Source: Sneathiella chungangensis (lineage in GTDB: Bacteria; Pseudomonadota; Alphaproteobacteria; Sneathiellales; Sneathiellaceae). From it: a stretch of 64,000 nucleotides of DNA. The position numbers and the translations under genes were made by a program. Of this stretch, positions 6,998-16,824 are shown one piece after another. The stretch covers positions 372,001-436,000 of the forward strand of contig NZ_WTVA01000001.1 of the NCBI RefSeq assembly GCF_009882935.1, written 5' to 3'. Positions within the stretch are counted from its first letter, which is position 1. Every line of letters begins with the position of its first letter. Under the pieces are notes generated by a model. The model had not been told where the DNA came from. It did no database searches and saw only the letters and a program-made list of their open reading frames with translations.

Positions 6998-7453
6998 CTA
7001 CTGAACCGGATAGCCTTTCCAGGGCTTGATGGCGCGAAGGGCAAAGGTCGAGCGCATACTGGCAACATGCGGCAATTTCGTCAGGCAATTTCGGTGGATA
7101 CGATCATAATCCGGCACGTTCCGTGCGGCCACCCGGACAATATAGTCCGCATTCCCCGATGTCAGATGGCATTCCAGAATTTCGTCGTAACACATCACAG
7201 CTTTTTCAAACTGGTTCAACGTTTCCTGACTTTGCGAAGTGAGTGAAATTTCAACAAATACATCTGCCTCTAGTCCGAGGGCATGCCGGTCCAGACGGGC
7301 CGCATAGCCGTCTATTATCCCTGCTTCTTCCAGCATTTTAATGCGCCGATGACAGGCGGAAAGCGAAAGATTAACCTTCTCCGCAATCTCGGAAATGGAT
7401 TTATCGGAGTCAATCTGCAGTTCAGATAATATTTTACGATCAAAGTGATCTAT
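6998..7453 (-). CDS. Lrp/AsnC family regulator, probably of ald; start appears to be ATA
   Basis: With an ATA start at 7453-7451 the product is 151 aa, the normal length of an AsnC/Lrp protein. The N-terminus reads DHFDRKILSELQ, then the HTH (ISEIAEKVNLSLSACHRRIK) and the linker LEEAGIIDGY, then a RAM ligand-binding domain (VMCYDEILECHLTSGNADYI). The first ATG in frame (7336) would remove the whole HTH. No ATG, GTG or TTG lies between 7336 and the upstream in-frame stop at 7552-7550. The ATA sits exactly where family members have Met, and AGGA ends 9 nt upstream. One CTG (7486-7484) and some ATT/ATC codons are weaker alternatives. The gene is divergent from ald, as is common for alanine-responsive AldR/Lrp activators. 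Confidence 0.8.
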   Translation of the reverse strand: MDHFDRKILSELQIDSDKSISEIAEKVNLSLSACHRRIKMLEEAGIIDGYAARLDRHALGLEADVFVEISLTSQSQETLNQFEKAVMCYDEILECHLTSGNADYIVRVAARNVPDYDRIHRNCLTKLPHVASMRSTFALRAIKPWKGYPVQ

Positions 7454-7595
7454 TGAATATTTTCCTGAAATTTGTGTCGAAAGCAGGATTTTACACCAAA
7501 ATCGGGTAACATTGAAATAAATTTCGAAAAAAATATCGGCGATAAAAAGCTATAATCCCTCTATCGATTAAATCACCTAGCAGGGAGCGATGGGC
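7454..7595. promoter_or_regulatory. Divergent lrp-ald control region
   Basis: An AT-rich region between the Lrp-type regulator and ald. On the plus strand a perfect TATAAT lies at 7551-7556, about 45 nt before the ald start, with no good -35 at 16-18 nt; this fits an activator-dependent promoter. A-tracts and a TTTCGAAA palindrome (7522-7529) are typical of Lrp-type binding regions. Shine-Dalgarno AGGGAG at 7582-7587 is 8 nt before the ATG at 7596 but only 2 nt before the ATG at 7590. Confidence 0.5.
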
Positions 7596-8714
7596 ATGAA
7601 GGTTGGAACACCCAAAGAAATCAAAAACCATGAATATCGCGTCGGGCTGACGCCGGAAAGTGCCGGAGAGCTCGTCGCGCATGGACATGAAGTACTCGTT
7701 GAAACCGATGCGGGCAAAGGTATCGGCGCATTGAATGAGGCCTATGAAGCAGTTGGCGCGAAAATCGTTGACACCGCAGAAGAAATTTTCGCCCGCGCAG
7801 ACATGATCGTTAAGGTAAAGGAACCGCAGGCGGTGGAACGGGCCATGCTCAGCGAGGGGCAAATCCTCTATACCTATCTCCACCTTGCCCCGGACCCGGA
7901 ACAGACCCATGACCTGATCAAGTCAGGGGCCGTCTGTATCGCCTATGAAACCGTCACCGACAACAGCGGTGGCCTCCCGCTCCTCAAACCCATGAGCCAG
8001 GTTGCCGGGCGCATGTCGGTGCAGGCTGGCGCGGCGGCGCTTGAAAAATCCCACGGCGGGCGCGGCGTGCTTCTCGGCGGCGTTCCCGGTGTCGCGCCGG
8101 GTAAGGTCGTTATCATCGGCGGCGGTGTCGTTGGTTTTAATGCGGCGCAAATGGCCATCGGCCTGCATGCGGATGTCACCATCCTCGACCGCAATCCGGT
8201 AACGCTGGAACGGCTGGAAAATCATTTTGAATCCTCCGCCAAGGTTATCTATTCGACGAACGCCCTTCTCGAGCGCCTCGTGAAAGAGGCGGACCTCGTG
8301 ATCGGCGCCGTCCTGATCCCCGGCGCAGCCGCACCGAAACTGGTGACGCGCGAAATGCTGAAGACGATGCAGGACGGTGCGGTGATTGTCGATGTCGCGA
8401 TCGATCAGGGGGGCTGCTTCGAAACCTCCAAGGCGACCACGCATGCGGACCCAACTTATGTCGTCGATGGCGTCGTCCATTATTGCGTCGCCAATATGCC
8501 GGGCGGCGTTGCCCGCACCTCGACCTATGCGCTCAACAATGTGACCCTGCCCCATGCCCTCCGGATCGCCGACAAGGGATGGAAGCAGGCGCTTCGGGAC
8601 GACAGGCATCTCGCCAATGGCCTCAACGTCTGGAACGGAAAGATCACCTGCGAGCCCGTCGCACAGGATCTCAAGCTCGACTACACACCGGTTGACGTCG
8701 CCCTTAAAGTCTGA
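7596..8714 (+). CDS. ald: Alanine dehydrogenase
   Basis: A 372-aa NAD-dependent L-alanine dehydrogenase that interconverts L-alanine and pyruvate plus ammonia. The N-terminus [20 protein letters not shown] is nearly invariant in the family. It contains Lys and His in the pyruvate-binding region ([15 protein letters not shown]), the Rossmann loop [13 protein letters not shown] (about residues 173-185), the signature [13 protein letters not shown] (about 264-276) and [18 protein letters not shown]. The start at 7596, not 7590, is set by the Shine-Dalgarno spacing and by homology. The gene is divergent from its likely Lrp-type regulator and ends in an intrinsic terminator. Confidence 0.97.
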
Positions 8715-15762: not shown

Positions 15763-16824
15763 ATAGCCGCTTTTGTTGATGTATTTCTGATGCTGTTGCT
15801 GATTGCCGGTGCCCTGGCGGTCCTGTCGGTGCGCAATCTGTTCGTCGCAACGATGCTCCTTGGTATCGTCAGCTTCACCATGGCGCTGATATTCATCAGC
15901 CTCGACGCCGTCGACGTCGCCTTTACCGAAGCCGCCGTCGGCGCCGGCATCAGCACGGTTCTCTATATCGGCACCCTTGCCCTTGTCGGATCTCAGGAAC
16001 GCGAGAAATCGAAATTTGCGCCCGGCCCTCTCGCGGTCTGTCTTGCGGTCGGCGCCGTGCTTTATTACGCAACCTATGAAATGCCGCGCTATGGCCAGCC
16101 GGACAACCCCGTCCATACCCATGTGGCCCCCCGTTACATCGAGGATAGCCCGACGGAAATAGGCGTTCCGAATATGGTAACGTCGGTTCTGGCGAGTTAT
16201 CGTGGCTATGATACCTTTGGCGAGACAACCGTGATCTTTACGGCCGGGATCGGCGTGTTATTGATCTTGCGGCAACGGCGTCGGCGCAAAAAAGAGGTAA
16301 CGACGGAGGACCCGCCGCTCCGGGACGGCAAGGGCGGCAGCATTAGCGGGCTAGGAAGCGCGCACGATCTTGTCCCGCATGTCATATCAAAGCTGCTGGT
16401 GCCCTTCATTTTCGTATTTGCGCTTTATGTGCAGTTCCATGGCGATTACGGCCCGGGTGGCGGATTTCAGGCTGGGGTGATTTTTGCCGCCGGAATTATC
16501 CTCTATGCGCTTGTTTTCGGTCTTGATTTCGCACGGGCGGTTGTCAATGAAAAGGCGATCCTTTTTCTTATTTCCGCCGGCGTTTTACTATATGGCGGCG
16601 TTGGCGTCGTGAGCATGCTGCTGGGTGGAAACTTCCTCGACTACAATGTCCTGTCAAGTGACCCCGTCGCCGGACAGCATCTTGGCATTCTGCTCGTCGA
16701 ACTTGGCGTCGGCATAACGGTGACGGCGGCGATGCTGGCGATTTTCTATGCGTTTGTCGGCCGGCCGGAATTACTGATCGAGACATCGACGAATGCGGAA
16801 CAGCCGGGGAAGGAGAGAAACTGA
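15763..16824 (+). CDS. mrpB: DUF4040-MnhB fusion subunit of Mrp antiporter; start appears to be ATA
   Basis: About 353 aa. The N-terminal third is a DUF4040/MbhD domain, equivalent to the C-terminal part of MrpA (VDVAFTEAAVGAGISTVLYIGTLAL). A loop and a membrane segment follow, and a basic linker (RQRRRRKK, about residue 170) leads to an MnhB domain (LYVQFHGDYGPGGGFQAGVI). The expected N-terminus, AAFVDVFLMLLLIAGALAVL, is preceded by ATA at 15763, with GAGGGG ending 8 nt upstream. The first ATG (15790) has no Shine-Dalgarno and removes nine conserved-looking residues. No ATG, GTG or TTG exists between them. The stop overlaps mrpC by one base. Confidence 0.88.
   Translation: MAAFVDVFLMLLLIAGALAVLSVRNLFVATMLLGIVSFTMALIFISLDAVDVAFTEAAVGAGISTVLYIGTLALVGSQEREKSKFAPGPLAVCLAVGAVLYYATYEMPRYGQPDNPVHTHVAPRYIEDSPTEIGVPNMVTSVLASYRGYDTFGETTVIFTAGIGVLLILRQRRRRKKEVTTEDPPLRDGKGGSISGLGSAHDLVPHVISKLLVPFIFVFALYVQFHGDYGPGGGFQAGVIFAAGIILYALVFGLDFARAVVNEKAILFLISAGVLLYGGVGVVSMLLGGNFLDYNVLSSDPVAGQHLGILLVELGVGITVTAAMLAIFYAFVGRPELLIETSTNAEQPGKERN

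Follow-up and report, generated by a model that had tools for sequence, protein, structure and literature searches.

In Escherichia coli, the gene infC starts at AUU and is autoregulated by IF3. In Staphylococcus aureus, AUA is the start codon of infC, citZ and ccpN, the last of which encodes a repressor; output from the ccpN and citZ sites is about 10-30% of that of AUG, AUA starts yielding about 10% of AUG in poor medium and ccpN up to 30% in rich medium, and the AUA/AUU sites of this species are reported to have extended Shine-Dalgarno sequences (SDs) (PMC13009471). IF3 is essential in bacteria, and in Streptomyces the gene sigR, which starts at GTC, is repressed by IF3 (PMC5472188). A search of the literature on alphaproteobacterial ATA starts and on the start codons of Sneathiella found nothing relevant.

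The window, that is, the whole stretch of 64,000 nucleotides analysed here, belongs to a genome of Sneathiella (Alphaproteobacteria) and carries a gene for a transcriptional regulator of the Lrp/AsnC family (lrp; Table 1), for which a sequence-only reading had proposed an ATA start codon. Here, I argue that AUA is very probably the genuine start of this gene in the window species and in at least four relatives, where inefficient initiation would result in a scarce, probably AldR-like regulator. With its unusually clean comparative evidence, lrp is a new example of a known rare phenomenon, and a second gene of the window, mrpB, is another.

The likeness of lrp to infC lies in a non-canonical ATN start kept over long times, the infC of Sneathiella itself starting with ATA; the difference is that infC encodes the discriminating factor behind a strong SD of -8.5 kcal/mol, whereas the Sneathiella lrp encodes a transcription regulator behind a weak SD of -4.3 kcal/mol (duplex energies assuming an E. 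coli-like anti-SD, the value for mrpB being -8.2 kcal/mol). In S. aureus and Bacillus subtilis, ccpN likewise has a conserved AUA start and codes for a metabolic transcription regulator, but it belongs to another protein family in another phylum and has an extended SD, as against the 4 bp of lrp, and the start of the Sneathiella gene is ATA in some species and ATG in others. The AGGA of lrp is thus no extended SD of the kind seen at the S. aureus-type non-canonical sites. Other marks of natural AUA genes are present, in that ATA is the sole ATN/NTG codon in one orthologue (L010) and is conserved in 5/11 orthologues. With Streptomyces sigR, lrp would share the condition of a regulator held low by a non-canonical start, the low level being presumed for the Sneathiella gene; the start codon is GTC in sigR, not ATA, and IF3 dependence is proven for sigR and presumed for lrp. 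On the basis of domain architecture, length and gene order, a further close counterpart is presumably the AldR-type Lrp/AsnC regulator encoded divergently from ald, from which the Sneathiella protein differs in the start codon of its gene, and whose regulation of ald it may be supposed to share.

Results

The regulator lies in an open frame of 183 aa (6998-7549, minus strand) preceded by TAG, the earliest ATG, GTG or TTG of which is the ATG at 7336. The sequence-only reading had pointed out that no such codon occurs between the upstream stop and 7336, and that an ATA occupies the initiator position, with AGGA 9 nt ahead and a product of 151 aa; both observations hold. According to Pfam, the N-terminus is a winged HTH of AsnC type (PF13404, E 1.7e-14; PF13412, E 9.9e-17), the HTH_AsnC-type match setting in right at the ATA codon (residue 33 of the open frame), and the C-terminus is an AsnC/RAM ligand-binding domain (PF01037, AsnC_trans_reg, E 2.9e-19). 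Since none of the NCBI equivalogs for Lrp, AsnC, LrpA and others reaches its curated cut-off (best 110.5 bits versus 233), the regulator can be named at family level only. Isoleucine codons in this genome region are ATC in 65%, ATT in 29% and ATA in 6.3% of cases (257/4094).

Table 1. Features of the lrp-ald region and of mrpB (positions in the window)
Feature	Position	Strand	Evidence
Lrp/AsnC-family transcriptional regulator (lrp), 151 aa from ATA	6998..7453	-	stop TAG 7000-6998; Pfam, orthologues
ATA start codon of lrp	7451..7453	-	ATA in 5, ATG in 6 Sneathiella orthologues; upstream stops in L009, L010, L016
Shine-Dalgarno AGGA of lrp	7463..7466	-	4 bp pairing, 9 nt ahead of ATA
Putative extended -10 TGGTGTAAAAT	7488..7498	-	predicted; conserved in all ATA species
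Inverted repeat GAAAT-TT-ATTTC, lrp-ald intergenic, candidate operator	7514..7525	-	sequence conservation
ald, alanine dehydrogenase, divergent neighbour, probable target	7590..8714	+	Pfam AlaDh_PNT_N, AlaDh_PNT_C
mrpB, MbhD/MbhE/MnhB fusion subunit of Na+/H+ antiporter, ATA 15763-15765	15763..16824	+	Pfam, orthologues

Nearly all the sequences nearest to the regulator come from Sneathiella. The gene is present in 11 of the 25 Sneathiella genomes searched, that of the window included, the ten other orthologues being 74-92% identical to it; in 14/25 no match was found at E <= 1e-50, some of the genomes being incomplete. Across the 11 orthologues the start codon is ATA in five and ATG in six, never ATC or ATT, so that only its third base varies. 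Given how few isoleucine codons are ATA in this genome region, the recurrence of ATA at one codon goes beyond chance. ATA is found in the window genome, S. sedimenti CAU 1612 (G022/L009), HT1-7 (G002/L011), G020/L010 and G014/L016, and ATG in G008/L008, G001/L012, G013/L028, G016/L013, G023/L031 and G021/L032. In five more distant orthologues (L014, L172, L173, L174 and L175) this codon is likewise ATG, and another (L015) has ATG four codons upstream of the start position. The alignment of orthologues, proposed in the sequence-only reading as a check, thus returned ATA in four other Sneathiella and ATG in six; from the latter it follows that AUA is dispensable for the function of the gene.

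In the window and in HT1-7 (L011), the frame stays open for 32 codons upstream of the ATA and contains ATT and ATC, and in the window CTG too, which speaks against the AUA-start explanation. Translation is known to start in rare cases at CTG or ATT, and might here begin at the CTG at 7486 or at an ATT six codons ahead of the ATA, the latter then being a plain isoleucine codon. Such an upstream start is improbable, for the other three ATA species have an in-frame stop 8 (L009), 6 (L010) or 5 (L016) codons upstream of the ATA, with no NTG in between and neither CTG nor ATT after it. The frame reads TGA AAT TCA GGA AAA TAT TCA ATA GAT in L010, where ATA is the sole ATN/NTG codon, TAG ACG GGA AAT TTT TCA ATA GAT in L016, where besides the ATA there is no ATN/NTG codon and one ACG, and TAG ACA CGA ATA TTA GGA AAA TAT TCT ATA GAC in L009, which offers only a second ATA. 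As no NTG codon occurs in these three leaders, a CTG start is not a general answer, and that at 7486, which the first reading of the sequence had left possible, is effectively excluded. The CTG also sits close behind the putative -10, which would set the transcript start at about 7482-7480, downstream of this codon, and so probably leave it outside the transcript.

The pattern of conservation leads to the same start. Mean pairwise differences at codon positions 1/2/3 are 0.44/0.45/0.42 in the 24 nt upstream of the start, 0.23/0.12/0.46 in codons 2-16 and 0.14/0.09/0.52 over the whole gene; the drop in position-wise variability from codon 2 indicates that protein-type selection on the regulator begins at this codon, while no codon-type conservation is seen in the stretch upstream, in which L014 has a 1-nt indel. 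The ATA of the orthologues, the upstream stops and the conservation from codon 2 all bear out a start at the ATA, which on this comparative footing may be taken as nearly certain.

A gene that has lost its canonical start may be a pseudogene, and the absence of a match at this threshold from 14/25 Sneathiella would fit a decaying regulator gene whose start has been lost. There is little to commend this view: the frame is full-length in all five ATA species, its codon positions 1 and 2 are under strong purifying selection, and the ATA clade spans a large divergence. A species tree was built from lrp, mrpB and infC after removal of the start codons. In it, G008 and the ATA species group together with a support (88/87) that is not strong, and G018, without an lrp match, also falls inside. 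The ATG species G008 nests there with G020 and G002 (100/99 support), from which it follows that ATA and ATG substitute for one another at the start codon. One gain of ATA and one reversion to ATG would be the simplest history; a tree based on lrp only has low resolution and does not contradict it.

A sequencing or assembly error concealing a true ATG would need a single base, and the close relative L008 does have ATG; nevertheless the chance of it is minute, given that the ATA recurs in four other species from separate projects, their independent assemblies comprising isolates (S. sedimenti CAU 1612 and HT1-7) as well as MAGs, and that mrpB has ATA in 11 species. The G-to-A error once considered for this codon is thus effectively excluded. 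Although no canonical start precedes the ATG at 7336 in the frame, initiation there is scarcely credible, as the truncated regulator would lose 39 residues, including most of the strongly conserved winged HTH, and other residues take the place of this methionine in L028, L013, L016, L031 and L032.

The second ATA start that had been claimed for the window, that of mrpB at 15763, stands as well. In a clade of 13 genomes (100/100 support) the codon at its start position is ATA in 11, ATC in G016 and CTT in G021, and ATG is found in 11 other Sneathiella, which form the sister clade. Conservation is of coding type from codon 2, with differences of 0.14/0.08/0.41 in codons 2-9 versus 0.44/0.48/0.46 upstream, and the start codon ends in A in 11/12 aligned rows, a degree of conservation equalled by only 12/89 other third positions. 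Initiation at codon 10, a conserved ATG, with which the beginning of the Pfam MbhD match at residue 11 would agree, is less likely. In the mrpB of G021 (L069) a GTG lies five codons upstream of the CTT, as if a replacement start had arisen.

The genus cannot do without initiation at AUA. The start of infC is ATA in 24/24 Sneathiella genomes in which the gene was found (L033-L056), with AAGGAG as SD (GAGGAG in G006/L049) and a stop (TAA/TAG) directly ahead of the ATA in 22/24 and 4-5 codons upstream in G014/L038 and G024/L048; as this start is genus-wide and IF3 is essential, Sneathiella must initiate at AUA. An ATA apparently stands at the same place in the infC of several other alphaproteobacterial families. 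Three identical initiator tRNA genes with anticodon CAU and no UAU tRNA were among the tRNAs recovered (RF00005, ARAGORN), a list known to be incomplete from the want of a tRNA-Ile(GAU), the rRNA operons being probably missing in part from the assembly. The CAU initiators, together with the lack of a UAU tRNA among those recovered, point to the reading of AUA by the normal initiator, and make a dedicated initiator with anticodon UAU most unlikely. The initiator tRNAs (L164, L165 and L166) have a UCAGG/CCUGA anticodon stem in which pair 29-41 is A-U and not the conserved G-C; this pair is one gripped by 16S rRNA in start selection.

Further ATA starts were sought by comparing 400 kb of the window genome with 400-kb stretches from two relatives, which made 221 conserved genes examinable. 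Frames in which conservation starts at least 6 codons ahead of the first canonical start were flagged, the final pick being made by eye, and the survey is blind to AUA starts with a canonical start codon within six codons downstream. Nearly all of the 52 ORFs flagged proved to be conserved 5' UTR/SD, and lrp and mrpB were the only convincing cases, apart from a decayed transposase. In this truncated gene of the IS6 family (L096:5730, minus strand), an ATA directly after a TGA occupies the codon at which relatives, compared by a search of plasmids, have their annotated start, probably as a result of decay.

As to the leader of lrp, the GGA of its SD is kept in 10/11 orthologues, and the strength of the SD is alike in ATA and ATG species. 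Folding around the AUA gave no significant structure, a small hairpin just 3' of it being absent from L009. A scan of the regulator upstream region with the sigma-70 consensus found no promoter and did not pick up the putative -10. The motif TGGTGTAAAAT occurs in 5/5 ATA species; the ATG species, G008 too, have TATAAA/TATAAT-like or other forms. Promoter form and start codon would thus seem to change together across species. The divergent layout of the regulator gene and ald is seen in the orthologue alignment.

Discussion

With an AUA start for lrp, the normal initiator fMet-tRNA, with its CAU anticodon, would read the codon with a mismatch at the third position, and the regulator would still begin with fMet. 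A near-cognate AUA combined with an SD pairing of only 4 bp leads one to expect initiation that is inefficient and restrained by IF3, and a regulator that is scarce in consequence. It is probable that AUA keeps the regulator scarce, as it is that its synthesis is sensitive to IF3; the regulator itself is probably AldR-like and in control of the divergent ald. What tells against the AUA-start explanation is the weakness of the SD (-4.3 kcal/mol) when set against the extended SDs at the S. aureus AUA/AUU sites.

Whether the AUA genes of Sneathiella (infC, mrpB, lrp and probably others) might constitute an IF3-dependent translational group is a tentative and rather doubtful proposition. If it were true, the status of IF3 and the ribosome, or the growth rate, would govern how much is made of an amino-acid regulator and of a Na+/H+ antiporter subunit.

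Gene callers in general seek ATG, GTG and TTG, and genes with an AUA start are therefore easily mis-started or truncated. In the present case, the comparison of genomes pins down AUA starts in two genes other than infC in one alphaproteobacterial genus, and the natural swaps between AUA and AUG in closely related species provide a ready-made experiment on the weak start of a regulator.
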